From positions 12,049 through 76,048 of IMG/VR virus record IMGVR_UViG_3300030430_004034: 64,000 nt of DNA; one strand, given 5' to 3'. Shown piece by piece: positions 41,837-64,000 of this stretch. The DNA is from a virus. The translations under genes and the position numbers were made by a program. The number at the start of each line of letters is the position of its first letter. The stretch's first letter is position 1. The notes below the pieces were generated by a model. It did no database searches, had not been told where the DNA came from, and was given only the letters and a program-made list of their open reading frames with translations.

Positions 41837-43567
41837 TCAAGAGATTAGACCCGTCAATTGCAATTTATCTATCAACAAGTCCACTTTAGTTCTAAGGAAT
41901 CCTATTTCATCCTCTAGAGTTTGAAGGTAAGCCCCGGCGCTCGGCTCAAATCCCGGCGGCAAAGAGGGGTCGTCGGCAGGTCTTGAACCAATAGTGCTTG
42001 AGCCTAAATTACCTACAGCCCCCCTTGTAGTAGGAGTGACGCCATAAAATCCGACATTTGAACCATCGTGGTTTAGATTGCCGTTGATTTCTATTTCTCC
42101 AACTGTCCGAATAGTTCCAACACTCAACAATCCAGAAAGATGTTGCCCATTACCACTTATTGCGGTGAGGTCGGTTGTAGCGGTAGCAGAAAATGATGAG
42201 TAGTCGTTAGCACTACCAACACCTAAATTATTGTGTCCGGTGTTATCTGAATCTGCCACAGCGTCATTCAAAACCCAACCATCATCTTGAAAGTTATTTT
42301 TAAGAAAAACCTCAATATTATTTGTTGCATCTGCTATTTGTATTTGCAGAACTGCCCCATCATAAGTAGATGCTTCTTTAATTCTTACCGAAGAAATACC
42401 AACTGTGGAAAAATGACTAACATGTTCAACACTTATGCCATTTCCATTTCCTGCACCAAACAAATGGCTGGCTGTTAAAATAATGCTTTGATGTCTTGAA
42501 GAATCTGTATTCCTAATGAAAAATTTTCCTATACCTCTTTGTTTTTGGTTTGCTGATGAACCATGACTACCTGCGCCGTTCCACCCGTCAATATGAGCAA
42601 TCGTATGAAAGCCGGTTGCTATATCGTCTGATAAATCTTGAAACTGGTTGTATTGAACACCACTAGTTTGAATATCGCTTGATATTACGACCTTTCCTGT
42701 TCCATTTGGAGATATGTTAATGTCTCGATTAGATGTAGAAACAATTGAATTTGTTTGAACATCCAAATTACCACCTAATTGCGGAGAGGTGTCTTCTACC
42801 ACATTTGCTAAACCTGAAGTTGGTAAAACAGCCAATGCCGCTTTTGCGTTTGAATGAGTGTAAGTTAAGACATATCCATCTTGTCCTGAGCCAACGGTTT
42901 GGTCCCCGTCAATCGGTAGTGTTCCTATTTTGACATCACCTGTTCCGTGTGGCGTCAAATTAATGTCGGCATTTGAATTCGTTGTGGCTATGTCTATACT
43001 ATCTGCATCCGAAGAAATCGTACCCATTTCAGTATAAACTCCTGAATTATTTCTTGCGATGCTCAGAGAGTTAGAAGTTTTAGTAGTAGTCAAAAATTGA
43101 ATGTGTCTCTGTGTAGTGGTTTCTCCAGCACCCAATCGAATAACAGCGATGGGAATATCCGTCGTAGCAGGGTTGGGGACCGTATCAGTAATAATCGTCC
43201 CTCCGTTGTCTTTCAAGGCGAGAGCGTTTGAAGAGTTTACAACAAGAAGATAGTAGGCAAATCCTGAAGTTGGTTCCTCAAAAGAAGAAGGCGTTCCTTG
43301 TGTAAAGTTTGCAGTGGATACTGCCGCTTGGAGAGCACCCTCTCGTACAACTCTTCCTGCCGCTACAGCAAACTGAGTTTTACCTCCAGAATCGCTTTGT
43401 GTGATGTCAAAATCGTTTCCTTCAATGACAGCATAGTTTCCTTGCGTAGCGATATTCAAGGCGTGAAACAGTGCGCTGTGCGGGAAATCTGTTCCATCTA
43501 CAAGTCCACTCACTGTAGGGTCAACGCCCATTCTGCTAAATCCTCTGTTGTTTGCACTGCTTGTCAT
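41837..43567 (-). CDS. Tail fibre protein
   Basis: This encodes 576 residues. It contains the repeats NADINLTPHGTGDVKIG and RDINISPNGTGKVVIS, the NLTPHGTG beta-turn unit typical of marine phage fibres. The C terminus has a coiled-coil-like stretch (YLQTLEDEIGFLRTKVDLLI) that suits trimer formation. It is the last virion gene of the late operon. It probably contacts the host surface. Confidence 0.85.
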   Translation of the reverse strand: MTSSANNRGFSRMGVDPTVSGLVDGTDFPHSALFHALNIATQGNYAVIEGNDFDITQSDSGGKTQFAVAAGRVVREGALQAAVSTANFTQGTPSSFEEPTSGFAYYLLVVNSSNALALKDNGGTIITDTVPNPATTDIPIAVIRLGAGETTTQRHIQFLTTTKTSNSLSIARNNSGVYTEMGTISSDADSIDIATTNSNADINLTPHGTGDVKIGTLPIDGDQTVGSGQDGYVLTYTHSNAKAALAVLPTSGLANVVEDTSPQLGGNLDVQTNSIVSTSNRDINISPNGTGKVVISSDIQTSGVQYNQFQDLSDDIATGFHTIAHIDGWNGAGSHGSSANQKQRGIGKFFIRNTDSSRHQSIILTASHLFGAGNGNGISVEHVSHFSTVGISSVRIKEASTYDGAVLQIQIADATNNIEVFLKNNFQDDGWVLNDAVADSDNTGHNNLGVGSANDYSSFSATATTDLTAISGNGQHLSGLLSVGTIRTVGEIEINGNLNHDGSNVGFYGVTPTTRGAVGNLGSSTIGSRPADDPSLPPGFEPSAGAYLQTLEDEIGFLRTKVDLLIDKLQLTGLIS

Positions 43568-43905
43568 TATTCAACCTCCAAAGTCACGAAGAAATCTACA
43601 TCCTCTGTAGAGAATGGCCCAATCCCTTCAAAATTTATTCTTGTCAACATTTTGCTAAAGTCTGAGTTGAAAATACCCAACTCTCGTATCGTGTATCCGG
43701 CAATAGATGCTCCGGCCACTGTGAATTTGAAGTCCACTACATTCTCATCAGATTTGGAAGAGACAATGGTTGAGACATCAAATATTGGGACATCTAGATT
43801 CGTAGAGGTAGGGCTACCGTTGTTTCCCCCTACCCCGATTCTAGCCTTTGTGTAGGTTGTTTTGAGATGAGTTGCCATGTCTTGTCTTGCCGCATCGGTA
43901 ATCAA
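43567..43905 (-). CDS. Small tail protein, fibre adaptor candidate
   Basis: This encodes 112 residues from TTG (overlapping the stop of the giant gene; AGGTGG before it). VDFKFTVAGASIAGYTIRELGIF resembles baseplate or fibre-attachment proteins of tailed phages (ARELGIF-like element). It lies between the giant tail protein and the fibre, consistent with joining them. Confidence 0.6.
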   Translation of the reverse strand: MITDAARQDMATHLKTTYTKARIGVGGNNGSPTSTNLDVPIFDVSTIVSSKSDENVVDFKFTVAGASIAGYTIRELGIFNSDFSKMLTRINFEGIGPFSTEDVDFFVTLEVE

Positions 43906-46900
43906 AAGTCCACCTCCCTAACCGTAGTCGTTGTGATTGTCCCCGTTGACAGTGGGGCGCTAAACCCAATTGTTCGGACGAATCCAATCTTATTAGTCGT
44001 TGCTGAGGATTCTCTCTTTTGGACCATAAGTTTTCTCTCTCTCAGCGAAACGAGGTCTAAAAGGGATGCATTTTCGTTTGGTCTGGATAACTCTTTTGAC
44101 CGGAGATTCGCTCTGTTTGCATTTGTTGATATGAGAAGTTCTGCGAACCTGTCTTCCATTCCCTTTGAAAACCTACCAAGTTCCAACTTGACGAAGCCAT
44201 CAATGCGATGCTCCATTTCCAGTATTTGATATTCATTTTTCGGAACATTTTCTTGAACGAGTTCAAGTGATATAGTATCCCCGGCTCGCAATTGGCTTAG
44301 ACCGCTATGACCCAACTCTACACTGACCTTTTCATTCAATTTAGAATGAAGCCTTAGAAGTTCAATGGCCTTTTCGTCAACATCTTCTTGAGTGAAAATG
44401 CTAGGGTCCTCTACCTCTAAGGTCTTTTTCCCAATCCTTTGGATACTACGGAGGTTTCTTTTTTCAGAAACATGCGATGCCCCGTAAACGATAATTTCAT
44501 TGTAGAAATCAAACAACCCGGAAGATTTCTTGAAGTCTTTAATTTGTATTTTTTGATTTCTATCTGATATGAAAAGAGAAGGGTGCAAGTCTGCATCATC
44601 GGATTCTTTGACCTTGAAACTGCTGTCTTCAAATATCAAATCTCTATCCTTTCTGTTCAAGACATAATTTACAGCAGAGAACAAATCCACACTCTTGAAA
44701 TTGGGTGCTAAAAATAAAGGATAAGTTGAATCAGGTATCTCATGCTCTATGTCGTTTGATTCTAATAAGTCATTTACGATGTCGTCGGCTTCATGACTTA
44801 TGTTCACAACTGAGCCTATCATCGCCCTTTTAGCGGTGTTGGTAATGTTTTGTGGAGTAGTTATGGTAAAGGTTTCAGATATGGAGACTACACCGTGCTT
44901 CTCTTTCATTTCACCTATTTCTAGATAACTACCTAAATTTGTGCCTAAAATCTTCATGTTTATAGGAGATTTATGGGTGTTTATACCATCAGAAATACAG
45001 GCTGAAAAATCTACTTCATTTCTAAATGGAAACTCATTAAAAGTAGTGAATGCGAAAAAATGGTTTCTAGCAACAACTTCATCCTTTTCTTGAGTGACAT
45101 TTGAATCTTGTTTATCAGGGTCAACCACTACATACATTGAAAGAACGGCTTCATTGTTTCCAGCGTTTGTAGAAATAGGACTATCTCTTCCTCCGGTTCC
45201 ATATGCTAAGGAGTAATCTCTCATACCGTCGTATGTTTTGTTCTCGTAGGCAACCTTAGTGTATTCACTAGACATAACATTCAATTTGATTCTATTTGGC
45301 GTGAAATCGTAGAATGTAGTTTCGTTGGGTTGCATCACCCGATAAAATCCATTTGTCAAATCAGAATCAACTTGAATAATATGCGTCAATGTAGTGTTAT
45401 CTGTTTCTATTTCATGACTTAGAACATAACCTATCTTATTGGGCATCGTGTTGTTTATTCCGCCCACAGAACCGCTTGCTCCTGTTGCTGTTCCAGTTTC
45501 GTATTCAAGCCCTGCTTCAGAAACCAAGTAGCAACCTGTTAAATCAGAAATGAAATCCAAAATTTCAGAGTTAGTTATGCGATAAAAATAAATTGACTTG
45601 TTTCCGGGTCCGACATTATCTTCTCTAGTTATGTTCGATTGTGAAGTATCCAATTCTATTCTTGCTTTGAATCCCATAAAGACGCCTTCTCCATCTGAAG
45701 AAGTGGCGGTCCTACTGCCACCACTTGGTCCATCGTGAGTCATAAATTGACGACTTAGCCCCATGTTCAAGGTAGTGATGTTGTTTGAATATTTTCTCAA
45801 ATGAGTGTTGTCGTTATTGGGGAAAACAGTCCCCTTTGAAAGTTGAAATCCTCCTCTATTTCCCGATTCTATATTGTACCTATCAAAAATAAATCCGGTC
45901 AAAGAATCTTTGAACCCATCATCTGGACTGGAATTGGTGTTATCCGTCAAAGCATCTATTTTCTTCAATAATCTACTAGGATGGCCCGATATATTATTTC
46001 CTATTCTGTCATTATCGTTAAAACTTATTGGCAAAATCAGATTAGAGAAAGAATTGGTATGTGTTGTTGTTCCAGCCGGACTGTCCAAGGCATGTCCAAA
46101 TATCGTAAATGGTGAAGACTCAGGCCTGTAAGTATCGTTATGAATTGTTCCTTTGTGGAAAGTAATCCCTTCTTCAAACCGCAAGAAAGAATCTTTCTCC
46201 CCATGACCCTTAATTGTGGTCTTTTTGGTTGTTGCTTTATGAAGAACTCCGGTATAAGCAGAGCCGCTGTTTGTAGGTATCGGGTCTTCATCAAGAGTTA
46301 TGGTAGAACCCGTTTGGTTTCCATTTACAACACCTATCAATTTACCGTTAGCATCTACGAGAAGGTCGTTATCGCTTAGTGTAACGCTCGCACTCAAAGT
46401 AATGTTGGACGAACCATAACTACTTACTGAAACATTTGACCCCCCGCTATCTGTCACTGCGGCAATAGAATGATATTGGTAGATAAGAGAAGGAATACTT
46501 CTAGATTTTTTAGGGGGTTTTTCAGGGTTAAATTGATTAAAAGCAAAATCAAAAACCACTTCTGTTAGTCTCATAATAGCCCCTGCCTTAAGTGAAGCCG
46601 GGTTCTTATCTACCTCGCTGATTGAACAATCAATGTAGTTTTCATCAGTGTATTTGATTGCTGAACCATTTGAAGAATATTTTGATTGATTCTCTGAAGT
46701 AGCCCCCTCTACAGGAGCAGTGAGCAACATTACTTTGTATTTTTTCAAATCCTCTTTATCTGTTAACACAGATGTTGAAAGGAGACTATCCGTTCTTCTT
46801 TTAGAGTAAGGCGTTAAATCACTTGTAGAAAACAAAAACAATCTTCTAGATTTTGCGTCAAATTGTTCTAGGTAATCTTTAGAGACATATTTTGACTTCT

Positions 46901-49900
46901 TTACTTCTTCGCTTATCGTAGGAGGATGGACATCTACAATCACTGGTTTAGTATGTCCTGATTCGTAAACATTGTAATCAAAGAACAAGGAGCCACCCGC
47001 AGGGAAGTTTCCTCTCATTTCAATAGGCAAATGGTTGCTGTTGCTAAATGTGAACTTCCTACCAATCGTTCCGTCATAATAGATTGATGAGGTAAAATGC
47101 TTGATTGGGTTTACTTTGTAACAAGAAGCATAATATTTGATTTTGCTACCACCCTCATAGAAATTACCAAACTTTAATGCTATATCGGTTATTGCTAAAG
47201 AGGTGAAATCAAAAACACCCTTTTCCAAGTGCATTATTCTGTATTGAGGTGTTCCATATCTTTCTGTTGTAGTTGTGCTTTGCGACCTTTGCGCCGTGTA
47301 AGTATTGAAAGTGGCTGGCAAATCATTAGAAGTGAACAAAGGATGTAAGAGTGAAACAAATTTACCCCCATGCAAGTGTTCCCCGTTCACGAGATACAAG
47401 TCCTGAGTGTATTTCTCTTGGTAGTTTTGTCCAGATAAAGGGCTGAAATCGTCAAGTCTTTCTACTCTTTCTGATGCGCCATGAGAAACTACCCTATCCA
47501 CATATATTCTGTAATTGGTGCTTGTGCTAGGCTTTGTTATCTGCGTAATATAGCCTACAAAAACACCTTCGTCACTGATGCTGGGTCTAATATAAATCGG
47601 GTCTCCTTCGGACGGAGAGTTTCCGAAAGAAGTGACTTCAATGTATCTACGCTCAGAAGCCGTAGTCACAGTCCCTACTGTTTGGCCAACTAATTCCAAA
47701 TCTAAATCTGTGCTATCTGCATCGTTAAAATCCAATCTACCTAATGAAACAGGTATGTAAGGCGCTAACTCAATAAGTGTTTTACCGTCCTTTGTGCTTT
47801 GTGAAACAACTGTGAAATCAATCAAACTGTTCACTGTATTGAAGTTCGCTAAACTTGGCGATGAAGCCCCATCGCTTAATTCGGCTTGGAAATCATTGTC
47901 CTTATCAATGTTTGAAACATTGTGTAGATGGTATCCTATTGCTTTATCATCGGTGGATTTACTCGTTTTTATCAGGCTGGAATTATCAGAAAGGTCCAGA
48001 CCCGACTCAAAAAATATCCCTTTTTCAGATGCTCCAACAAGACTTGTTGTAGTTTCTTCTAACCTATTGTTTGAAGTGAGTGCTTTATTGAAAACATATG
48101 GCTTGGTGTTTGTTTTGTATATATTGAAAGTAGTGTGAGCAACGCTAGAACCTAGAGTCAATTTTCCAGTTGTAGCCAAAGATTTACCCTCTAAAGTAAC
48201 GACCTTAGTTGAAGAATTGTAGGCTTGGACTCTTCCTGCATACGAGAAATTTAGGTTACTATAATAAACGAATATTTCATCTCCCACTTCTGGAGCAGAG
48301 GCTACAGAAGCCAAAGTTAGAGTGTTTGAGGAGAATAAAACTGTGTTAGATGTCCCACAAAAAACCCCTAATTTATGTGGACTGTGTGATGAATAAATCA
48401 TGTCCTTTGAATGCAAGAAATTTTTAGTTATTATTGGAGATATGAGTTTAGAATAAGTGCTACGACCAAACAACTTCATGAAGTTTTGACCAAACTCTCT
48501 TTCGGTATTTATTTGTTCTATCGTTCCTTCAAACCTTTCAATTTCTATTGAATAGGCTCCCTCAATAAACCCTATACTAGATTCAGACTCATAAAGCGAA
48601 TCATCAAAGGAGAGAGACAGAGTTTTTGTTGTAGCGTTGGACGAAGAAACGCTTGCTTCCACTAAATCGTTGAAAATGACTTTTACATTGTGATGTCGGT
48701 TTTCTATGATTTTAAAGGTCGTCAAAAGATTTCCTTTTGATTGACTCCACGCTCTTCTAAATAATCTATCTCCCGAGTTTGTTATTCCTGTAAGGCTAGT
48801 AGCCGCAAAAATATTTGAAGACTCCAAACGAGTAGATGTGGTCATAACAATAGTTTGTTGGTTGGAAGAAAAGGAACCTATGGCGCTTCCTGTTGAAGCG
48901 ATGATGTAGATTCTATCAGCAATTTTGACCTCATCTCCTTCCGCTAAGAGTGTGGACAAATCGTACTCTGTATTGAATACAAAGTTTGTCCCAGATTGAG
49001 AAGATATGGTAGCCTTTAGCGGGAAAAACTCTGATAGGTTCGCAGAGTGTAGGCGATGCCGTATTCTCAATAAATCGTCTTTCTTTATTTTAGAAGGGAG
49101 TATGCGTTGAGTGTCAATGAGTTTCACTTCCGCATAGCCGCCCTTTGAACCAACAGATTCAAACACATTAAAATCCGCTAAGGTGAAATTCGTGTTGGCC
49201 TTCTCTGGGGAAAAAGAATAATGTGCATAACGAGAGGGTCCAGTCAACGCTAAAGTTGACGCATCGGTTTGGTCGTAAACATCGTTTGCATCTCTTCTTG
49301 CGTTAAAGAAACATTTACTGTAATCTGTAAAATCATTAGAAGGCAAAGTAAATCCTTCGCTGGAAGTTATTGCATTTTCTGTAGGGTCATCTAAATCTCT
49401 CAATTTATCCACAAGAACGGCTTTCATTGTGTATTTACTGTAATCAATAATTCGTTTTGAAAAATCTGTCGTAGTGACGAAGGCGTTGTTTATATTAGGA
49501 GTAATTGTTGTTGCGGGTGTAGCATCAATATATTTAATGAAATATTTTGTATTATGGTCTAATTCATTTTCTTTATCTAATCTTTCTGAATAAAAATAGA
49601 AAAGAGGTCTAGCACAAGTATAGGATTTATCGTATTTGTATGTAGAAGAACCAGAAGTAATATTTTCATTTTTGATACCAATAGAAAGCGCAACGATAGA
49701 AGTCTCTGTTTTCAAAGGGCCACGAAAAACCATAAACTTTGTATCTTTAGGTATTTGCTTACCCAGTCTTGGCTCAAAGTCGAAACGGTCCCCGGATACT
49801 TCGTCTTGCTTTATTTCTGTGATTTTTGCAAAATGGTGTTGCAATAAATCATCTGAATGTAAAAGAACGAAGTAGTCGTATGTTTGATTAGAGAGTGGTG

Positions 49901-50216
49901 AAATGCCGTCAAGTTGTAGTCCGGTTTGAGAGTTTTCATCCCAACAATGAATCGTATATCCTTCCGTGTTGCTTAAATTGGAATACTCCGTTCCTGCTGA
50001 ATCACTACCCTGTAGTTGCTGAACAAAGTTTTGGCTATGAGAGCCGTCTGTTGAAATGTAGGCATAAAGTCTCGGATTGGATGGCGAAGAACCAGCGTTG
50101 CTAACGAACAGAGGGTTAGTAGGACAGTCAAAATTGACATTGTTCGTAGCGTCATTGATTGTTGTGACAATCGTGGGATTCGGGGAAGTCCCTTTACGCA
50201 TAGCGAATACTGCCAT
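43902..50216 (-). CDS. Giant tail protein with C-terminal hub-like domain
   Basis: This encodes 2104 residues. Most of the chain is beta-rich with many Ser, Thr and Asn residues and repeated short barrel-like units, as in central tail or receptor-binding proteins. The last 350 residues (FYNEIIVYGASH, AGDTISLEL, YQILEMEH) look like a phage tail hub (gp27/gpD-like) barrel. FVTTTDFSKRI near residue 250 is shared with the small protein at 16561. It is the largest gene of the window. Confidence 0.8.
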   Translation of the reverse strand: MAVFAMRKGTSPNPTIVTTINDATNNVNFDCPTNPLFVSNAGSSPSNPRLYAYISTDGSHSQNFVQQLQGSDSAGTEYSNLSNTEGYTIHCWDENSQTGLQLDGISPLSNQTYDYFVLLHSDDLLQHHFAKITEIKQDEVSGDRFDFEPRLGKQIPKDTKFMVFRGPLKTETSIVALSIGIKNENITSGSSTYKYDKSYTCARPLFYFYSERLDKENELDHNTKYFIKYIDATPATTITPNINNAFVTTTDFSKRIIDYSKYTMKAVLVDKLRDLDDPTENAITSSEGFTLPSNDFTDYSKCFFNARRDANDVYDQTDASTLALTGPSRYAHYSFSPEKANTNFTLADFNVFESVGSKGGYAEVKLIDTQRILPSKIKKDDLLRIRHRLHSANLSEFFPLKATISSQSGTNFVFNTEYDLSTLLAEGDEVKIADRIYIIASTGSAIGSFSSNQQTIVMTTSTRLESSNIFAATSLTGITNSGDRLFRRAWSQSKGNLLTTFKIIENRHHNVKVIFNDLVEASVSSSNATTKTLSLSFDDSLYESESSIGFIEGAYSIEIERFEGTIEQINTEREFGQNFMKLFGRSTYSKLISPIITKNFLHSKDMIYSSHSPHKLGVFCGTSNTVLFSSNTLTLASVASAPEVGDEIFVYYSNLNFSYAGRVQAYNSSTKVVTLEGKSLATTGKLTLGSSVAHTTFNIYKTNTKPYVFNKALTSNNRLEETTTSLVGASEKGIFFESGLDLSDNSSLIKTSKSTDDKAIGYHLHNVSNIDKDNDFQAELSDGASSPSLANFNTVNSLIDFTVVSQSTKDGKTLIELAPYIPVSLGRLDFNDADSTDLDLELVGQTVGTVTTASERRYIEVTSFGNSPSEGDPIYIRPSISDEGVFVGYITQITKPSTSTNYRIYVDRVVSHGASERVERLDDFSPLSGQNYQEKYTQDLYLVNGEHLHGGKFVSLLHPLFTSNDLPATFNTYTAQRSQSTTTTERYGTPQYRIMHLEKGVFDFTSLAITDIALKFGNFYEGGSKIKYYASCYKVNPIKHFTSSIYYDGTIGRKFTFSNSNHLPIEMRGNFPAGGSLFFDYNVYESGHTKPVIVDVHPPTISEEVKKSKYVSKDYLEQFDAKSRRLFLFSTSDLTPYSKRRTDSLLSTSVLTDKEDLKKYKVMLLTAPVEGATSENQSKYSSNGSAIKYTDENYIDCSISEVDKNPASLKAGAIMRLTEVVFDFAFNQFNPEKPPKKSRSIPSLIYQYHSIAAVTDSGGSNVSVSSYGSSNITLSASVTLSDNDLLVDANGKLIGVVNGNQTGSTITLDEDPIPTNSGSAYTGVLHKATTKKTTIKGHGEKDSFLRFEEGITFHKGTIHNDTYRPESSPFTIFGHALDSPAGTTTHTNSFSNLILPISFNDNDRIGNNISGHPSRLLKKIDALTDNTNSSPDDGFKDSLTGFIFDRYNIESGNRGGFQLSKGTVFPNNDNTHLRKYSNNITTLNMGLSRQFMTHDGPSGGSRTATSSDGEGVFMGFKARIELDTSQSNITREDNVGPGNKSIYFYRITNSEILDFISDLTGCYLVSEAGLEYETGTATGASGSVGGINNTMPNKIGYVLSHEIETDNTTLTHIIQVDSDLTNGFYRVMQPNETTFYDFTPNRIKLNVMSSEYTKVAYENKTYDGMRDYSLAYGTGGRDSPISTNAGNNEAVLSMYVVVDPDKQDSNVTQEKDEVVARNHFFAFTTFNEFPFRNEVDFSACISDGINTHKSPINMKILGTNLGSYLEIGEMKEKHGVVSISETFTITTPQNITNTAKRAMIGSVVNISHEADDIVNDLLESNDIEHEIPDSTYPLFLAPNFKSVDLFSAVNYVLNRKDRDLIFEDSSFKVKESDDADLHPSLFISDRNQKIQIKDFKKSSGLFDFYNEIIVYGASHVSEKRNLRSIQRIGKKTLEVEDPSIFTQEDVDEKAIELLRLHSKLNEKVSVELGHSGLSQLRAGDTISLELVQENVPKNEYQILEMEHRIDGFVKLELGRFSKGMEDRFAELLISTNANRANLRSKELSRPNENASLLDLVSLRERKLMVQKRESSATTNKIGFVRTIGFSAPLSTGTITTTTVREVDF

Positions 50217-54259: not shown

Positions 54260-56230
54260 TCACCCCTGCAAAATCCAATGCGTCTTGACCGTACATGAGT
54301 TGAGCGTCCTTGGGATGATTGTAGCCTCAACCATGACAGGTCCTTTGTCTTCAGGGATTGGCCAGTTGTTCGTCGTCAGCATGTAGTTGTCAAATTTGAG
54401 TCTGATTTGCTCTCCGTTTTCTTTATCAAAAATCAAATCAATGAGAGCACCACTGTTTGCTAGTTGATTCTCATCCTGATTTTTCAATTCATTGAACAGT
54501 TTATCATCGGTGACAAGTGCAGTAAATGACAACTCGTAGGTTCGCTGTGCAGGAATTGCGTCTTTAACGCTCTTATTTCCAATACCAATGAATCTCTTGT
54601 CCGTCAAGGTGTTATTCATGGTCAAAGTAAAGTTTGTAATTTTCAAGAAGTTTTGCCCAAACAGACTGATTGAACCTCCAGAAAAGAAGAACGGTTCTAG
54701 GAATTTATCGTTATCAGAATAATTCTTGAACGAAGTTTCATCCGTGACTGAGCGACGAGCCGCATACTTTTCTCCCTTGGTTAAGTTGTGAAGTTTACGA
54801 GGCATGGTATCAAGAGTCATTTTCAACTCTTCGTTTTCGTTGGCTGTCATGGTAAGAGTGTTGATTCTGTTTCCTGTAGCGATGAGAACGAAGTTGGTAT
54901 CTTCGTCGGCATCAGCAGTATTTGTGCTGTAAGTATTCGCAGAGGGTAATTTAGAAAAGACTTGCTCCATAGCAAAGGAAGGAAGGTCGTCCCCGTCTTG
55001 TTCAGAAAAAGTGTAAGTGATTGGATTTGAAATGGTAGTGGTTCCACTAGGTTCTGTCAATTTATGAACATCAGCAGAAGCGTCCTGCCCTCTTAGAAGG
55101 GGCGGGTTGAACGCAAATTGTTCAGTTGTCCCACTACCTTTCACAAGAGTCCTGTAAAATAAAGGCCCAGTATCCGTGACTGAACTTGAATTAAGATAGT
55201 ATCCTTCTGTATTTGCTCCGACAAAATCGGTGATGGTTGCTGTTATCGTAATACTGCTTCCAGTTCCAGTAGCCGCCGAACTTAATTCAAATGTAGTGGC
55301 ATTAGTGACCGAAGCCACAGTTGCGCCAGCAGGGATGTTTGTTCCGGATACCGCCATCCCCGTTTTCAAACCAGCAGTAGAAGTTACTGTAACTGTTGCA
55401 TCTGTGTTAGTGGTCGCTCCTCCCGCAAGAACGAGGTCAGGGTCTACCAAAGTTGCAGAAATAGCAGAACACTTACCAAAGAAATAGTAAAGCCAAGCAC
55501 CATGATTAGCGACAACATTTACGCTAGCATTTCCGGCAGTCTCAATGCCTTTATACTGGTAAGTGAAGTTTCTACTACCGCCAACGAATAAGTTTTGTTG
55601 CTTGAATTCTACTTCAAGAGAGGGGAAAGTTAAGGATTCTAGAATCCCCATCCAATAATCAGCGTTCAAATGTTTTAGGTTAGAAGAACCACTGTTTGCG
55701 GGGCAAGGAGCACCATACCCCTTTAGGTGAAAATAATCATTTGAGGTATCTAGAACAACGCTTGAAGGGTGTATTCCGGGGTGGAATGTCAGAGTCGTCG
55801 AATCATTGGAAGTAACTCTGTGACTCGTTGTATGTGTTCCATTATCATAAAACTCAAGAACGCAACCCACATACAAATCATCTACTAAATCAAATCGGCT
55901 TGTAAAATCGGTATCTAAATTCAAGGTCTTGATATTTGTAGCCGTAAAAGTGATGCTACTTCCCGTCCCAGTAGCGGCTTTATCCAAGGTTGCTTGGGTG
56001 GCGCTATCAACGGTGACAACAACTGCCCCATCCGGTATATTTGTCCCCGTTATTGCCATACCGACAACAACATTTGTATTTGAACCGTATGTAACGACTT
56101 TACTATCACTAGTTGTAGCGCCGGTAGAAAGAGATACGCTCGTAAAAGCCGCAGGTTTCAGATAAATATCAACTTCGGGAACAAATGTTACCGATGCACC
56201 GCTTCCTAAAAATATATTCGTGTTGGTCAT
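54260..56230 (-). CDS. Major tail tube protein with two inserted repeats
   Basis: This encodes 656 residues, much longer than usual tube proteins. Two repeats of about 60 residues with VVGMAITGTNIPDGAVV and KTGMAVSGTNIPAGATV and an ATGTGSSIT ending lie near residues 28-95 and 268-330; this GM.v.Gt.Ip.G..V unit is common on phage surface proteins. The C-terminal half (FTLTMNNTL, YELSFTALVTDD, IRLKFDNYML) suits a tube domain. Position fits. Confidence 0.78.
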   Translation of the reverse strand: MTNTNIFLGSGASVTFVPEVDIYLKPAAFTSVSLSTGATTSDSKVVTYGSNTNVVVGMAITGTNIPDGAVVVTVDSATQATLDKAATGTGSSITFTATNIKTLNLDTDFTSRFDLVDDLYVGCVLEFYDNGTHTTSHRVTSNDSTTLTFHPGIHPSSVVLDTSNDYFHLKGYGAPCPANSGSSNLKHLNADYWMGILESLTFPSLEVEFKQQNLFVGGSRNFTYQYKGIETAGNASVNVVANHGAWLYYFFGKCSAISATLVDPDLVLAGGATTNTDATVTVTSTAGLKTGMAVSGTNIPAGATVASVTNATTFELSSAATGTGSSITITATITDFVGANTEGYYLNSSSVTDTGPLFYRTLVKGSGTTEQFAFNPPLLRGQDASADVHKLTEPSGTTTISNPITYTFSEQDGDDLPSFAMEQVFSKLPSANTYSTNTADADEDTNFVLIATGNRINTLTMTANENEELKMTLDTMPRKLHNLTKGEKYAARRSVTDETSFKNYSDNDKFLEPFFFSGGSISLFGQNFLKITNFTLTMNNTLTDKRFIGIGNKSVKDAIPAQRTYELSFTALVTDDKLFNELKNQDENQLANSGALIDLIFDKENGEQIRLKFDNYMLTTNNWPIPEDKGPVMVEATIIPRTLNSCTVKTHWILQG

Positions 56231-56963: not shown

Positions 56964-58088
56964 TCAATCAATTAGATATAGGAGGTCTTTCTTTCCATCA
57001 AGTATTTCCATAGCCTCTTTGCGAAGAATATCATATTTCTCTTTTGTAGAAATGTTTCCTCCAGTTTCGGCAATCAGAATCGTTTGGTCGTCATGTCTCA
57101 GTATTTCTGCCGCCGCTAATTTTGTAGCGGCTTCGTGAATGGCAGAAGGCACTCTTCCGTCGCCAGCGACATAATTTACAATCACTGAGTTTTTGTTGTG
57201 ATAAGGATACCTCTTTAGGAAAAAGATTCTACCATCATCGCCCATCATCCAAAAATCCCCTAAACGCTTCATGTCCTGTTTATCGGTGAAACCCTCAACG
57301 ATGGTGTTAGAGTTTTCACCGGCTTGGTCAGAAACGGTAATTTGACAATCGGAACCATCCTCTCCTTCCAATAGGCTAGAGATGTGTATTTTTGTGCCGT
57401 CGTTGTGGTCAGTGTAAGCGTAGAAAAAATCAGAAATGTTCAGAGAGTTTGGTGAAGAAGTCAATGCCTTTTCAGAAGTTGCTCCTGTGAATTGTGCTGT
57501 CTTTGAAGGAAATTGTTCATTGATAAGTGCGACGATTTCCTTTGCTGTCGTTTTAGCACCAAAAGTAGAATTGAATCGTGATGAGGCAACAACTGGAGTA
57601 TCCGCATGGGCGTGATATTTCAATTCAAAAACATCGCCTGAATTTGGAAGTTGTATTGAAATCTTGTTGATTTTAGTATAGGCGCTACTGTCCAAAGTTA
57701 TGCTGGCCTGAGCAGAAGCCAATTCTCTGTAGTTGGTTCCTTCCCAAACTTGGAGACTCACAATCTTCCTAACCTTCATTTGGTGGAGTTGAACGAACCC
57801 TACATATCCACCATAATACGAATGTATTGGGTGTCTTGAAAACTCAAAATCCTTAAACTCGTCTTTGTGGATAATAGGGCGATAAGAACGACCCACCTTA
57901 TCATCAATCATTCCTTCTACCCTTTTTATGATGCTACCTATTTGGGCGTGTGTAGGGTTGGTTAAAGAGGTAAACTCCGGTATTTGCAAAAGGTCGGATA
58001 CAGCACCCTTGTTCGTATAGAATCCCTTTCCTTGGGTGTAGTCAACATCAATTTCTGTGTAATCGCTTGGTGATGATGAGACAGGCAT
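56964..58088 (-). CDS. Head-tail connector (adaptor) protein
   Basis: This encodes 374 residues. The N-terminal helix IIKRVEGMIDDKVGRSYRP and C-terminal helix VPSAIHEAATKLAAAEILRH follow the gp6/gp15-like adaptor plan, in which helices ring the portal. A beta-rich insertion of about 200 residues (with GEDGSDCQITVSD) makes it larger than usual. Position between head and tail genes fits. Confidence 0.75.
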   Translation of the reverse strand: MPVSSSPSDYTEIDVDYTQGKGFYTNKGAVSDLLQIPEFTSLTNPTHAQIGSIIKRVEGMIDDKVGRSYRPIIHKDEFKDFEFSRHPIHSYYGGYVGFVQLHQMKVRKIVSLQVWEGTNYRELASAQASITLDSSAYTKINKISIQLPNSGDVFELKYHAHADTPVVASSRFNSTFGAKTTAKEIVALINEQFPSKTAQFTGATSEKALTSSPNSLNISDFFYAYTDHNDGTKIHISSLLEGEDGSDCQITVSDQAGENSNTIVEGFTDKQDMKRLGDFWMMGDDGRIFFLKRYPYHNKNSVIVNYVAGDGRVPSAIHEAATKLAAAEILRHDDQTILIAETGGNISTKEKYDILRKEAMEILDGKKDLLYLID

Positions 58089-58090
58089 GA

Positions 58091-59509
58091 CTAGTCCTCC
58101 AATGCTTCTTCTAACTCGTAAGTGTTTGCAAGAAGATTCTGTAAGAAATTTGTTGCTTCATCCCTTGAAGCATTCACTTGTTCTGTAAATGCTCCTGTTT
58201 TTGACCCCTCTTCCTGTTCTGCAATCTCTGCTAAACTTGCTCCTTCTGAAACTTCTGTGCTAACGGTAAAGTATTCAGGGATGTTTCTTGAGACTCTTTT
58301 TTCTCTAGCGAACCCCCCTCTTCCTTCTGTTCTAACAGGGACTCTTGTGAATCTTAGTTCGCCAGTCCTGATAACTTCAACTCTAGCAGTGATTTCATCA
58401 AACGAAAATTCTTCCTTCCTCAACTCGTTTTTGTAAGGGTCAAGAATAATTTCATCAGGCAGAATAACTTTCACATCAGCCAATATTTTGAAATCCGATA
58501 GAGCACCAATTATTCTTCTTCTCCTGTTCCCTGCGTCTCTAGGGAAGAGACAGTGCATCAATAATTTAAACGCTGTATTCTTGTCTATGTTTTTGAGAGA
58601 AAGAATTACTCTACCTTCACTTACAACAGATACTCTTTCTTCCCCAACCTTCACACTTGTTTTTTGCTGTGAAGCATCAAACTCTACATCGTACAAATCC
58701 ATTAAATTAAATCCGTTAATATCGTCTCTTAATTTTTCATCTAATCCGTATATTTTGAGAAATGTTTTGCCTTTGGGGTCTTCCGCTCTACGCCACGCTG
58801 TAGGAGATAATGAAGACCCTTCTTTGCCAGTTATTTTCTCCATCAAAACAACATCTTCCTTGAAAATATCGTCCTTTTTTGTTCTAGGATAATCTACTCT
58901 AAATAGCGAACTGGGCTTGTAATCTGCTAGAACCTGTTCAGTAAACGATTTCTTTTCATCGTCTCCAAATGAAATTATCAAATTACCTCGGCCTGTCGTT
59001 ACTTCCATGTTCTTTTTCATTGTGTCAATAAGAGTTTTGAACGGGTATTCTTCAGATTCTTCTTCCAATATTTCTTCCATATTTTCGATGATAATATCAG
59101 AATCTTCTCCCGTTTCAGTCAATTTTTCGTACTCTTCCGTTTCCTCTCCTCTACCGAGAATCGTAGCAAAGGTATTAGGATTTTTTAAATCATCAATGGT
59201 AAAGTCCATTTTTGTAAAGTCAATCAACTTACCTTTGAATTTCTTGATAGTGTTCAACTTGCTAATCTTGGTAGATGTTATTCCTGATAACTTATTTTTG
59301 ATTATTTTCTTAGCCTCATCAACATTTTCTTCATATGCCCCGAGTCTATTTATTCGCTCTAAATCTTCAATTTTTTCATCAAGAAGTTGGTCCTCTGTAT
59401 TGCTACCTTCTTCTAGAAATCCGTAAGCCAAGTTTCTCAAAATAATGGCTTGTCCTAAAGTCTCAACATCCGTCACTTCTTCACGGCTAAACAGTAGAAC
59501 CTTTACCAT
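58091..59509 (-). CDS. Hypothetical virion-associated protein
   Basis: This encodes 472 residues, acidic, with a helical first half, low-complexity Glu runs (ENMEEILEEESEEYP), a central strand region and a Gly/Arg segment (EGRGGFAREKRVSR). It lies between the head-associated genes and the connector. It may be a scaffold, an internal head protein or a head-tail joining protein. I recognise no family. Confidence 0.65.
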   Translation of the reverse strand: MVKVLLFSREEVTDVETLGQAIILRNLAYGFLEEGSNTEDQLLDEKIEDLERINRLGAYEENVDEAKKIIKNKLSGITSTKISKLNTIKKFKGKLIDFTKMDFTIDDLKNPNTFATILGRGEETEEYEKLTETGEDSDIIIENMEEILEEESEEYPFKTLIDTMKKNMEVTTGRGNLIISFGDDEKKSFTEQVLADYKPSSLFRVDYPRTKKDDIFKEDVVLMEKITGKEGSSLSPTAWRRAEDPKGKTFLKIYGLDEKLRDDINGFNLMDLYDVEFDASQQKTSVKVGEERVSVVSEGRVILSLKNIDKNTAFKLLMHCLFPRDAGNRRRRIIGALSDFKILADVKVILPDEIILDPYKNELRKEEFSFDEITARVEVIRTGELRFTRVPVRTEGRGGFAREKRVSRNIPEYFTVSTEVSEGASLAEIAEQEEGSKTGAFTEQVNASRDEATNFLQNLLANTYELEEALED

Positions 59510-59519
59510 TTATACCAAC

Positions 59520-60188
59520 TCACATCAACCATTTACCCCAAGCCGCCGCTTTTTGTATCGCAGAGCCTAGGTGAAGACCGCTTGATGGGGGTTCGTAACT
59601 TGTTTGTCCAGTGTTCGGGTCAACCCAATATGGCCTTCCGTATCCGTCAGTACCGCTAGGGGGGACTGGATAGCCACTGCCATTGTTTACTGCTCCCTGC
59701 ATCTGTTGGTATTGCTGAGTATGTCCAGTCACTCCGGCAATAGCCATACCTGCTGTCGGCTGGGCAGGCGCACCCCCTCCCATATTAGAAGAGAATCCTT
59801 GAGATTCAAGGTATTGCTGTTTTGCCATTTTTCTTTGCATAACTACCTCAGTATCAATTGCTGAGTTCACAATAGCATTAATGTCCAACTGTATGTTTTC
59901 TTTTGTAATCCTTTCGTACTCTCTGAGACAATCAGGATGAACAGTCATTTTGCCAGTGGTAGAGTCCTGAACAAACTCTAGTTTAGAAAGCATTTCGCTA
60001 ACCACTCGCTCGGTGACATCTTCCATCAACTTTTCAAAAGTCATTAAAAATTTATGACCATGATATTGGAAAAACTCCTCCACATGGTTGTCTTGTAGAG
60101 AAAGCAAATTGTTTACAGTTTTGAATTGTGTGTCCTGAGAGGCGCTGATTGCACCTACAATGTCTCTATTGTTTGGGCCAAAAACCAT
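59520..60188 (-). CDS. Hypothetical protein with WW-like C-terminal segment
   Basis: This encodes 222 residues from ATG 60188 (GGTGAGTGAA before it). The N-terminal two-thirds is helical. A Gln/Gly/Pro-rich linker leads to GRPYWVDPNTGQTSYEPP, which looks like the second and third strands of a WW domain, although the first conserved Trp is missing. It overlaps the stop of the gene upstream without a gap. Confidence 0.65.
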   Translation of the reverse strand: MVFGPNNRDIVGAISASQDTQFKTVNNLLSLQDNHVEEFFQYHGHKFLMTFEKLMEDVTERVVSEMLSKLEFVQDSTTGKMTVHPDCLREYERITKENIQLDINAIVNSAIDTEVVMQRKMAKQQYLESQGFSSNMGGGAPAQPTAGMAIAGVTGHTQQYQQMQGAVNNGSGYPVPPSGTDGYGRPYWVDPNTGQTSYEPPSSGLHLGSAIQKAAAWGKWLM

Positions 60189-60189
60189 T

Positions 60190-60822
60190 TCACTCACCCT
60201 TTCCTTGTATCAAAAACTCCATTCTTTCCATTGATGCTCTTACTTCTTGTGCCAACCTAACGACTTCTTCTGGAGCAGTTTCTTCTGTTTCTACACGAGG
60301 AGATTTGATTATCCATCCAGCACTTGTAAGAGAAATAATATCGTCCCTTGTCAATGTGGTGGCTGGCCCTTTAGATAAGACTTGTGGCAATCTAGGTTTT
60401 GGAATAAACGCCTTGAATTCCAGCCCGTGGTCTTCTGCCATGATTTGTTGTTGTAGCATTTCCATTTGTCGGTGAAAACCTGCATGTTTTGGGCAATAGG
60501 TTCCTCGCATTGGTCTACCTTTTTCTACATGAGTTAATGGAATAGGTGGTCGCATGTAGTCTCCTGCTTCCCAAATATGGTGGGTTCCACAAACAACACA
60601 ACGCTCTTTCAGATTAAATTTCCACCCGTAATTTACAAACAAAAACTTCTTCTTTTCTGCCATCAAAACCTTTCTAATTTCTTTCAACCTTTTCTTTGGT
60701 TTGAGCGTTCGATATTTGTATTCCTCTACCGGGCCACTTGCTCTTGCTTGAACAAGAGGTGGTAGGAACGGGTTGCTCGTCTGTGCTGATTGTGCGCCTA
60801 TCAAGTTTGGTTGTTGATACAT
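60190..60822 (-). CDS. Zinc-finger protein next to GTPase
   Basis: This encodes 210 residues from ATG 60822 (AGGTGAAAGAA upstream). CVVCGTHHIW and YCPKHAGFH supply C-x2-C and C-x2-H ligands about 40 residues apart. A Pro-rich N terminus and helical C terminus flank it. It directly follows the GTPase gene and may work with it. No family recognised. Confidence 0.7.
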   Translation of the reverse strand: MYQQPNLIGAQSAQTSNPFLPPLVQARASGPVEEYKYRTLKPKKRLKEIRKVLMAEKKKFLFVNYGWKFNLKERCVVCGTHHIWEAGDYMRPPIPLTHVEKGRPMRGTYCPKHAGFHRQMEMLQQQIMAEDHGLEFKAFIPKPRLPQVLSKGPATTLTRDDIISLTSAGWIIKSPRVETEETAPEEVVRLAQEVRASMERMEFLIQGKGE

Positions 60823-60831
60823 TTCTTTCAC

Positions 60832-61494
60832 CTAGTAATCCTTAATCATCGTAGTGACTCCACGGTAAACCATTTCCGGTTGGGACTTAGCCGATACTAT
60901 GTATTTGAATGTCGGTATCCCTCGTTCATTTAGTTTTTGCATACCATAATGGAAGGGGTCAAAAATAGGATGTTTGTTGATGTCTCCATCGTGTTTGTAT
61001 TTTTCTCCCCACATGTCGTACTTGTTTGCCCAAATACTGATTGCCAAGGGGTATTCTTCGTCTCTTTTCTTTTTTCCATTAGGCCACCTTGAAAGACAGA
61101 TAGCATCAACGAGAAACTTCCATGCCAGTTGATGGTCTAAGTTGGCTGGGTTGTCCAAATGCCTGTGGTCTATCATGAAGATAATGTATTTTACCCGTCT
61201 ATTTTTCATGTCCTTAATCCATTCTTTCCAATAGATGGACTCTCCGCCAATGTCAGCAGAGCGTAGGGTATGGACTTCTCCTTCAAACTTGATTCTTTTT
61301 CGGGTGGCCCTATGCACTCCAACCGTTCGTTCTTTGATTTGTGCAACTTCTCCCCTTGTCCTTAACTGATGTCCGAGAGTGGTTTTTCCAACCATTGTAG
61401 CCCCGTAAACTCCGAAATTGATTGCATGAATTTTTTTGTAGAAACCAATAATTGCTTCACCGACAAGGATAGCAAAGCCTGTCATTAGCGACAT
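60832..61494 (-). CDS. Ras/Arf-like small GTPase
   Basis: This encodes 220 residues. GATMVGKTT (31-39) is the P-loop, ADIGGES (80-86) the switch II DxGG element like Arf, MglA and SRbeta, NKYD (157-160) the guanine-specific NKxD and SAKS (201-204) the G5 loop. The first 20 residues (MTGFAILVGEAIIGFY) are hydrophobic and could anchor it to a membrane or another protein. Such GTPases act as molecular switches; one inside a virion operon is very unusual. The partner proteins probably lie in the adjacent genes. Confidence 0.88.
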   Translation of the reverse strand: MSLMTGFAILVGEAIIGFYKKIHAINFGVYGATMVGKTTLGHQLRTRGEVAQIKERTVGVHRATRKRIKFEGEVHTLRSADIGGESIYWKEWIKDMKNRRVKYIIFMIDHRHLDNPANLDHQLAWKFLVDAICLSRWPNGKKKRDEEYPLAISIWANKYDMWGEKYKHDGDINKHPIFDPFHYGMQKLNERGIPTFKYIVSAKSQPEMVYRGVTTMIKDY

Positions 61495-61506
61495 TCATTT
61501 AACCAC

Positions 61507-62010
61507 CTAAAAATATTTATCTAATATTTTCTTTAAATGTTCTTGGACTCTTAAATCATCGAATCTTAACATCGCTGAATCTCTCAATGCCTCTATTACT
61601 TCGGTTTTTCTATTGTCATATTCTAAATCACGCAGTAATTTTTTTCCTAATTCCTTAACTCTTGAATCGGGTAAATATTTGTATTCTAAATTAAAATATG
61701 CTGGTCTTCCTCTTGGAGTAGAGCCTTTTTTTCTACTAATCCACCCATAGTCACTATCGTAGGTCAAAAACATTTTTTCTTTTGTAGGGATTGTTTGTTT
61801 TATCATTGGCTTAGAAATGTCTTTTAATTCATCTGCTCTTGAGCCAAAAAACGCATAAACCAATGCTTCTGTTAATCTTGGTGTCCAATATCCTGTGTCC
61901 TCATCACCTTGGGAACCTTGAAATAATCTATTAAATTTCCAAGAATAATCTTTGCCGTATTCTTCATCTGTTTGAATAATATATGGTTTTTTTAAGATGT
62001 TCCACCACAT
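61507..62010 (-). CDS. Hypothetical protein upstream of GTPase
   Basis: This encodes 167 residues, basic and soluble, with YGKDYSWKFNRLFQGSQG near the start and a helical C terminus (LRDLEYDNRKTEVIEALRDS). No motif is recognised. It lies between a membrane protein and the GTPase, within a cluster of membrane and switch-like genes. Confidence 0.65.
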   Translation of the reverse strand: MWWNILKKPYIIQTDEEYGKDYSWKFNRLFQGSQGDEDTGYWTPRLTEALVYAFFGSRADELKDISKPMIKQTIPTKEKMFLTYDSDYGWISRKKGSTPRGRPAYFNLEYKYLPDSRVKELGKKLLRDLEYDNRKTEVIEALRDSAMLRFDDLRVQEHLKKILDKYF

Positions 62011-62011
62011 A

Positions 62012-62227
62012 TCAATGCCCCCACCCGTTTAACAAAGTGTCAAACAGGAAACCCATAACATTCATGTCAAAAACACCCATGATGTTTCCAACAAGGAAAC
62101 CGGAAAGACAGGCACAAAAGCCCCAAAACCACGCTCTCATTTTCAAAAAGAAAATGTCAGCAGAATGTGCTCTTTGTTGATTGTAGGCGTAATCCGAATC
62201 GGAAAAGCCCATTATGTCTCCAAGCAT
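62012..62227 (-). CDS. Small membrane protein
   Basis: This encodes 71 residues. AWFWGFCACLSGFLVGNIMG and a second hydrophobic stretch (NVMGFLFDTLL) suggest one or two membrane helices. GAGGTGAGG precedes the ATG. It is part of a group of membrane proteins upstream of the GTPase. Role unknown. Confidence 0.65.
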   Translation of the reverse strand: MLGDIMGFSDSDYAYNQQRAHSADIFFLKMRAWFWGFCACLSGFLVGNIMGVFDMNVMGFLFDTLLNGWGH

Positions 62228-62238
62228 GTAGCCTCACC

Positions 62239-62637
62239 TCATTGGAGTTGGGCTAAAAATTCTGCTCCTAATTCATTTTCTTCTTGGTAAGATGAAATTT
62301 CTGGAATTCTAGTGGTATTGAAATCCGTTTGGAAAGTCTTCAAGGAGTCTTGCATTCTCTTTCTTTGCTGTTCTTCCTTGTTTTTCATTTTCCAATAGGA
62401 TTCAATTCTTCGGTCAAGAAGTCCTTGTTCTATGTAGTCGTTAAGGAACAAGTCATTGAGAGCCTTCATGATGAGAATAGCACCGACGGTAATCAGTCCG
62501 AATAGAACACCGTGGGCTAAATGAGTGTATGGAAACTGCGTACCAAACTCAGCATAAAAGAAAACATTTGCTCCGCTCACCACCCCAACAAAAAGGATGG
62601 TCATAATCAGCCTTGTATCTGCGTTAAGAGCCGCCAA
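62239..62637 (-). CDS. Membrane protein with coiled-coil tail
   Basis: This encodes 132 residues from TTG (GAGGTGTTTTC before it, the local consensus). Two membrane helices (MTILFVGVVSGANVFFYAE and LAHGVLFGLITVGAILIM) are followed by a charged helix (about 85-110). A virion membrane component or a late assembly factor is possible. Role unknown. Confidence 0.7.
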   Translation of the reverse strand: MAALNADTRLIMTILFVGVVSGANVFFYAEFGTQFPYTHLAHGVLFGLITVGAILIMKALNDLFLNDYIEQGLLDRRIESYWKMKNKEEQQRKRMQDSLKTFQTDFNTTRIPEISSYQEENELGAEFLAQLQ

Positions 62638-63728: not shown

Positions 63729-64000
63729 TCAAGCGACATTGGTGATTTTACCTTGGCCCAAGAAGAAGGAACAGCCCGTCTCCGCAATCGTGCGGTAAAG
63801 GGCTTGGTTTCCAAGACGACCCACACCGAATGGGTTTCCGTTGCTGATACCGTCCTCAAAGTATTGGGTTGGCTTCATCACTTGGAGCCACAGATGGTCC
63901 GTATCAAGGAACAGAAGGTCGCTGATACCCGTATCAGAAGAATTGGTAGTAGAAGTCATTTCCTTCACAGGGATGAGAGGAATGTCGTAGTAGGTTGCCA
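63729..64000 (-). CDS. Major capsid protein (HK97-like), C-terminal part
   Basis: Only the C-terminal 90 residues are in the window; the frame continues beyond base 64000. ATYYDIPLIPVKEM, LLFLDTDHLWLQVMKP and LYRTIAETGCSFFLGQGKI follow the end of HK97-fold capsid proteins of archaeal tailed viruses (…R..IPLI……..LFLD..HL…..P). It heads the visible late operon. The call is based on pattern, position and following genes. Confidence 0.7.
   Translation of the reverse strand, partial: ATYYDIPLIPVKEMTSTTNSSDTGISDLLFLDTDHLWLQVMKPTQYFEDGISNGNPFGVGRLGNQALYRTIAETGCSFFLGQGKITNVA

Follow-up and report, generated by a model that had tools for sequence, protein, structure and literature searches.

A predicted Ras/Arf-like small GTPase in a conserved five-gene block of magrovirus-like tailed viruses

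The locus and its source virus

The window studied here spans 64,000 nucleotides (positions 12049-76048) of a viral contig that is 87,958 bases long (IMGVR_UViG_3300030430_004034). A long morphogenesis operon runs along the minus strand, and all of the features that we describe from the window are on that strand. The operon includes the gene for the major capsid protein, whose 3' part is at 63729..64000 and whose remainder lies farther along the contig, up to 65060. (It was identified with tblastn; the protein is similar to the major capsid protein of the haloarchaeal virus HVTV-1, with E = 8e-16 over 100%.) Other genes of the operon encode a head-tail adaptor-like protein (56964..58088; phmmer match to HVTV-1 gp125, E = 1.2e-12) and the tail tube protein (54260..56230; Pfam Phage_tube_2, E = 5.5e-12; HVTV-1 gp128, E = 3e-15). 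At the end of the tail region (41837-50216), two open reading frames of 2104 and 576 amino acids have no match in Pfam and are probable tail fibre or receptor-binding proteins.

The contig has two opposed gene clusters and also contains a match to family B-like phage DNA polymerases, a GroEL gene, and an HMG-CoA-lyase-like gene. This gene content and the two opposed clusters fit a magrovirus. Magroviruses (order Magrovirales, Aoguangviridae-like) are tailed viruses assigned to Poseidoniales, or marine group II archaea (PMC10768690). By extension from the magrovirus literature, the host is thought to be a member of Poseidoniales, a very abundant ocean archaeon.

Between the capsid/decoration genes and the head-tail adaptor lies a block of five genes. 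In order of transcription, it begins with TM2 (62239..62637; 132 amino acids), which was recognized by its conservation and hydropathy. TM2 has hydrophobic segments at about residues 8-29 and 38-65, followed by a charged C terminus that is probably a coiled coil. The next gene encodes TM1 (62012..62227), a membrane protein of just 71 amino acids that was recognized in the same way. The third gene, at 60832..61494, has an ATG start and encodes a protein of 220 amino acids, which we predict to be a Ras/Arf-like small GTPase based on its reading frame, an alignment of its homologs, a structural model, and structure matches. Directly adjoining it is the gene for a protein of 213 amino acids with a CxxC...CxxH motif (60190..60831), which we call the Zn protein; it was recognized by its conservation and by its homolog in a sister lineage (see below). 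The last gene encodes a protein of 225 amino acids with a glutamine-rich linker and a WW-like C terminus (59520..60197; Pfam WW, E = 1.3e-4), which we call the WW/helical protein. The WW-like sequence, YW[IV]DPxTGQxxYxPP, follows the linker and is conserved in the family. These genes match the list of neighbors in the initial annotation of the window. Two inserts do not belong to the set: a variable one between TM1 and the GTPase (61507..62010), which is present at 8 of 185 de-duplicated loci, and an occasional one beside the block (58091-59509), at 7 of 167 loci.

The GTPase family and its predicted fold

The initial annotation proposed that all five nucleotide-binding elements of a small GTPase are visible in the protein, and we were able to place each of them. 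Counting from Met1, G1 (the P-loop) is GATMVGKTT at G31-T39 (61378..61404), G2 is Arg56-Thr57 (61324..61329), G3 is DIGGE at D81-E85 (61240..61254), G4 is NKYD at N157-D160 (61015..61026), and G5 is SAKS at S201-S204 (60883..60894). From scans of viral contigs, we collected 340 full-length homologs and kept 82 with less than 88% mutual identity; these are 57-83% identical to the window protein. Elements G1 to G5 are conserved throughout. Specifically, G31, G36-K37-T38-T39, R56-T57, D81, G83-G84, W155, N157-K158, D160, W162, and S201-A202-K203 are invariant in all 82 proteins. Judging from the coding sequences, the GTPase is under strong purifying selection (the median dN/dS is 0.062 across 1697 close pairs) and is not there by chance.

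The G3 position that holds the catalytic glutamine in Ras and Arf is variable. It is glutamate in 62 of the 82 proteins, including the window protein, and glutamine in the other 20. The Q61E variant of Ras retains GTP hydrolysis, so glutamate at this position need not abolish activity. It may change the rate of hydrolysis.

Searches with single sequences were nearly blind to this family. Using the window protein alone, the matches to Pfam's MMR_HSR1 (E = 1e-3) and NCBIfam's small_GTP (E = 2.3e-3) were both below the curated cut-offs, as was the match to the SRbeta profile PF09439 (E = 0.11), and PHROGs gave weak matches only. The sole phmmer result against PDB was a monooxygenase, which we attribute to chance. 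For the Arf profile (PF00025), there was no match in the source genome at E <= 1, and the curated cut-off was not reached. The family as a whole gave a clearer picture: 80 of the 82 members match MMR_HSR1 (best E = 1.2e-5) and 62 match Ras (best E = 1.9e-5), with weak matches to SRPRB for 69 members (best E = 3.1e-5) and to Arf for 27 members (best E = 2.1e-5). When a profile of the family was compared to PDB, the best 60 matches were Ras or Arl proteins plus one entry described as a "GTP-binding protein" (best E = 0.0077). A profile that included the sister lineage had as its best match 8oun (E = 9e-4), which is described only as a GTP-binding protein.

We built an AlphaFold2 model of the GTPase from the alignment of 82 sequences (pLDDT 85.2, pTM 0.83). 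(An earlier AlphaFold2 model from 20 close sequences was poor, with a pLDDT of 58.6, and was not used.) In the model, an N-terminal helix is followed by b1-a1-b2-b3-a2-b4-a3-b5-a4-b6-a5, which is the full order of a G domain. NKYD follows strand b5 (residues 150-155) and SAKS follows strand b6 (residues 194-198), as expected for G4 and G5. The initial annotation had named a non-GTPase P-loop family, with these two motifs not aligned to G4 and G5, as the outcome that would count against a GTPase, and the model's placement of the motifs speaks against it. Foldseek matched the model to 1580 PDB chains at E <= 1e-3, and after VIA re-alignment, nearly all of the best 50 entries were Arf or Arl proteins. 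For instance, Arf6 (2a5f) aligns with 161 of 162 residues at 2.3 Å (Z = 18.6, 21% identity). Sar1, transducin alpha, Asgard ArfR, and an Asgard RagA-like protein rank below Arf and Arl. Given the motifs, the profiles, and the predicted fold, the product of 60832-61494 is, as far as sequence and model can tell, a genuine Ras-superfamily GTPase, as first proposed.

The closest folds are Arf and Arl proteins (Arf6, Arl1, and Arl3, along with Asgard ArfR, 8ouk and 8oum), with Z scores of 17-18.6. Like Arf, the viral GTPase has a DxGG(Q)-type switch II, a helix before b1, and a proposed action at membranes. In Arf, the N-terminal helix is coupled to an interswitch toggle. On the other hand, the two are only about 20% identical, most viral members have glutamate for the catalytic glutamine, and the viral family has invariant tryptophans around NKxD (W155 and W162) and a conserved R-H pair after b4. 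Arf also has WD before G3, which the viral GTPase lacks. Residue 2 of the window protein is serine instead of the Gly2 of Arf, so there is no myristoylation site.

The N-terminal helix (residues 3-20; 61435..61488) is a putative membrane anchor, based on the model and hydropathy, and is followed by a basic pair. Across the 82 members, it has a mean hydrophobicity of 0.81, a moment of 0.35, and a best 19-residue Kyte-Doolittle mean of 1.56. The hydrophobic N terminus that the initial annotation described is thus present, though these values make it borderline as a predicted membrane span. In the sister lineage, the helix is less hydrophobic (H 0.71, moment 0.23). Together with the hydrophobic segments of TM2 and TM1, the helix is consistent with a link to the membrane.

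The window protein appears to be the founder of a viral family, and our sequence searches detected no close cellular relative. A pattern-based scan of genome contigs returned only two viral contigs, NZMJ01000024.1 and NZMJ01000101.1, which are magrovirus contigs binned in a MAG of the bacterium Maricaulis; this placement is an evident binning error. No relatives were found among plasmids, nor by tblastn among 50,697 phage records. Among viral predicted structures, the matches to named small GTPases were all from giant viruses. These searches agree with the expectation that small GTPases are rare in tailed viruses.

Conservation and relocation of the five-gene block

We then asked how consistently the five genes occur together. 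The loci are from public viral contigs, some of which are fragments of related genomes; for counts of the block, identical GTPase DNA was counted once and only testable loci were considered. The order TM2-TM1-GTPase-Zn protein-WW/helical protein is fixed: TM2 and TM1 are upstream of the GTPase at 185 of 185 testable loci, and the Zn protein and the WW protein are downstream of it at 167 of 167.

Because those loci contain the GTPase by construction, we also conducted a census that was anchored on the capsid protein, which is unbiased by the GTPase. All 60 of the loci with enough downstream sequence have the GTPase, on the same strand and 1.45-3.5 kb downstream of the capsid gene. Across 55 representative loci, the mean identity between groups is 62% for the GTPase, compared to 61% for the capsid protein, 56% for the WW protein, 49% for TM2, 48% for the Zn protein, 40% for TM1, and 38% for the tail tube. 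The GTPase is a core gene and is among the most conserved late genes of these viruses. Chaperonins vary among the viruses that bear it: some have GroEL-type chaperonins, one has a thermosome, and in some we detected neither.

In one record, IMGVR_UViG_3300021958_000021 (184,733 bp), about 92 kb separate two distinct GTPase loci, at 59182-75844 (L060) and 151021-167674 (L089). Each of these GTPases is 77% identical to the window protein. This record is two magrovirus genomes joined together, by assembly or in nature.

A search with a capsid alignment led by HVTV-1 recruited a sister lineage, whose capsid protein is about 38% identical both to HVTV-1's and to the window's. Searching whole contigs, we found a divergent GTPase in 11 of 16 sister contigs (E = 1e-35 to 1e-43). 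It shares the capsid gene's strand and lies 20-24 kb upstream of that gene, versus about 2 kb downstream in the window lineage. The initial annotation placed the gene directly downstream of head genes, which holds for the window lineage but not for the sister lineage. In the remaining five contigs, loss of the GTPase was considered and rejected: D1 (see below) and TM2 are missing as well, and the expected site is beyond the contig's end in all five. We had also considered that the block might be an insertion confined to magroviruses, as 80 sister loci have no block within 10 kb of the capsid gene; the whole-contig search, which found it far from the capsid gene, overturned this idea.

The GTPases of the two lineages are about 31% identical and share the P-loop, RT, D--G, and NKxD. 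The G1 pattern GxxxxGKTT is also present in the 11 aligned sister proteins, and R-T is invariant across both lineages. At G3, glutamine is often present in the sister lineage, and a few members have DIAGE. In a tree of 117 GTPases, the lineages are separated with 100/100 support. (We had also named two clades by their DHRH or D[DN]RH motifs, but these do not fully match the tree, so they are motif groups only.)

The sister block has the same arrangement: a two-TM protein, a small TM protein, the GTPase, a cysteine-containing protein (D1), and a helical protein (D2). By hhalign, D1 is a homolog of the Zn protein (probability 95.7, E = 8.7e-9) and D2 of the WW protein (probability 81.5, E = 1.2e-5). 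TM2 and TM1 have the same place and architecture in both lineages, with sequence matches that are not significant (hhalign E = 0.11 and 0.17). At 80 further sister loci, the order is complete wherever it is visible (TM1 at 75/75, TM2 at 75/75, D1 at 80/80, and D2 at 80/80). Close to its capsid gene, the sister lineage also encodes small CxxCG proteins, for which homology to the Zn protein found support over no more than 15 columns; the real homolog is D1.

These gene orders indicate that the block relocated as a unit. Nothing argues more strongly for a joint function of the five products than the survival of their gene order through relocation and such divergence. The suggestion that the neighboring genes are the GTPase's partners is therefore strengthened, as the block is kept at all testable loci and has moved as one.

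The sister block has some other features. D1 (L480:7484-8470 and relatives; 302-330 amino acids) contains the stretch W-x-x-YWxNPVTGExEAF, which resembles the WW-like motif of the neighboring gene in the window lineage. After the block comes a third small membrane protein of 80-90 amino acids, which is very hydrophobic (L480:9114-9380, L484:9214-9456, and equivalents), and then a protein with weak HTH matches that is possibly the small terminase.

Proposed function and comparison with known systems

We propose that the five-gene module, with an Arf-like GTPase that founds a virus-specific family, is one machine for a late membrane-associated step; we rate this as slightly more probable than its opposite. 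The genes would be expressed late, as their placement in the operon suggests, and the products would form a physical complex at the host membrane. TM2 and TM1 would mark a site in that membrane, and the GTPase would dock there via its N-terminal helix and via TM2/TM1. When GTP is loaded, both switches of the GTPase (I, at Thr57, and II, at DxGGE/Q) would change, and the Zn protein and the WW/helical protein would be recruited to serve as effector or regulator until hydrolysis of the GTP releases them. The step served would be either particle assembly at the membrane or particle exit.

The best cellular precedent for such a module would be the archaeal vesiculating GTPase ArvA (also known as OapA). 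In Haloferax, knocking out ArvA abolishes RNA-associated vesicles, overexpression raises the number of vesicles, ArvA affects cell shape, and a Zn-ribbon protein is encoded in its operon (PMC10927574). ArvA and the viral GTPase are both single-domain small GTPases in PF01926 with Arf-like similarity, and there is a Zn protein in both operons; an output at the membrane, proposed for the viral set, is a further parallel. The viral set differs in having two membrane proteins and the WW/helical protein (the two systems were compared by family assignment and operon content). Also, the OapB/ArvB (DUF2073; PF09846) and OapC/ArvC (DUF2072; PF09845) families are absent from the source genome; the control genomes with matches to these profiles included H. 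volcanii. So, the viral set is not the ArvA system.

Among other prokaryotic proteins, MglA and Rup are single-domain members of the Ras superfamily, like the viral GTPase, and the archaeal Rup and MglA groups are proposed relatives of Arf, Sar, and SRbeta (PMC4316618). The text of that study of prokaryotic small GTPases nowhere mentions viruses or phages. Roadblock (MglB; PF03259), a GAP family, is absent from the source genome, which may be incomplete. As for viruses, the best structure matches are to the Rab/Ras proteins of giant viruses such as mimivirus R214, for which a membrane role has been proposed (PMC4569851). Those GTPases derive from eukaryotic Rabs and belong to viruses with membranes, whereas ours comes from a tailed virus of archaea, in which it is a late gene of the core set. 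They have a cysteine motif for prenylation, which is not present at the C terminus of the window protein (MIKDY).

In the Druskaviridae (HVTV-1 and HCTV-1), the genes for the capsid, the small head proteins, the adaptor, and the tail tube follow one another as they do in the window lineage. We did not find the GTPase, TM1, Zn, or WW genes in HVTV-1 or HCTV-1. These viruses build both heads and tails in the absence of the module, which means that the assembly of tailed virions as such does not depend on it. At the position of TM2, HVTV-1 encodes a single-TM protein, gp124 (L397:10328-10660), which is possibly an ancestral membrane component.

Could the module instead encode minor head, neck, or tail proteins, with the GTPase carried in the particle and used, for example, in genome ejection through a membrane? 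We consider this unlikely. In the window lineage, the block does sit in the classic place for head completion, between the capsid/decoration genes and the adaptor, and in both lineages it is on the capsid gene's strand. But the sister block is 20-24 kb away from the capsid gene, and HVTV-1 has the same head-tail order without the block. Furthermore, a GTP cycle requires nucleotide exchange, which is unlikely in a particle, and two membrane proteins would be unusual in a non-enveloped tailed virion. A lysis timer, in which TM2 and/or TM1 form holin-like pores and the GTPase is the triggering clock or gate, strikes us as somewhat less plausible again. We know of no GTP-gated holin, and TM2 has a long charged C terminus; its match to a holin profile is very weak (phrog_1299, E = 0.52) and not significant. 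Still, both membrane proteins are small, conserved, and encoded in a late operon, and a review found that no holin is known from isolated archaeal viruses and that most of their egress routes are unknown (PMC4456609).

The effects of ArvA on vesicles and cell shape in Haloferax, and the family that it shares with the viral protein, raise another alternative: the GTPase might mimic or titrate an ArvA-type host GTPase and so block or redirect vesicle formation or the control of cell shape. We doubt this even more than the lysis timer. The gene is always within the five-gene module, on the late strand, and a gene that is bound to a module and conserved like the capsid gene better fits a structural or assembly role than an arms-race mimic. 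Last, the weak profile scores of the single sequence (MMR_HSR1 at E = 1e-3, below the cut-off) and the glutamate that replaces the catalytic glutamine in most members might reflect a non-GTPase P-loop NTPase or a dead pseudo-GTPase with a chance resemblance to Ras. This seems very improbable, given that the G motifs are all invariant, that a confident model places G4 behind b5 and G5 behind b6, that Arf matches with a Z of 18.6, and that 20 of the 82 members, and many in the sister lineage, have glutamine.

Returning to the late membrane-associated machine, a more specific version can be offered only tentatively: a GTP-switched membrane machine of the viruses' own, which would serve assembly at the archaeal membrane, or exit through it without a holin, as an independently evolved functional counterpart to the membrane remodeling driven by Arf or ArvA, in a movable core block.

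The literature that could be searched yielded no description of a small GTPase from magroviruses or from any other tailed viruses of archaea; the main magrovirus papers were outside that search, so an earlier mention is possible. Small GTPases that act on membranes are regarded mainly as a theme of eukaryotes and Asgard archaea, with ArvA as a tested archaeal example and mimivirus Rab as a proposed viral one. A GTPase that is universally conserved and locked in an operon, in viruses whose assigned hosts are among the most abundant archaea of the ocean, points to an undescribed late step in the biology of tailed viruses; its fixed company of two membrane proteins suggests that such a step takes place at the host membrane under the control of a switch. 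It also raises the question of whether viruses contributed to the early spread of Arf-like switches. A defined set of five genes is now available for testing, with a bearing on how tailed archaeal viruses exit their cells.
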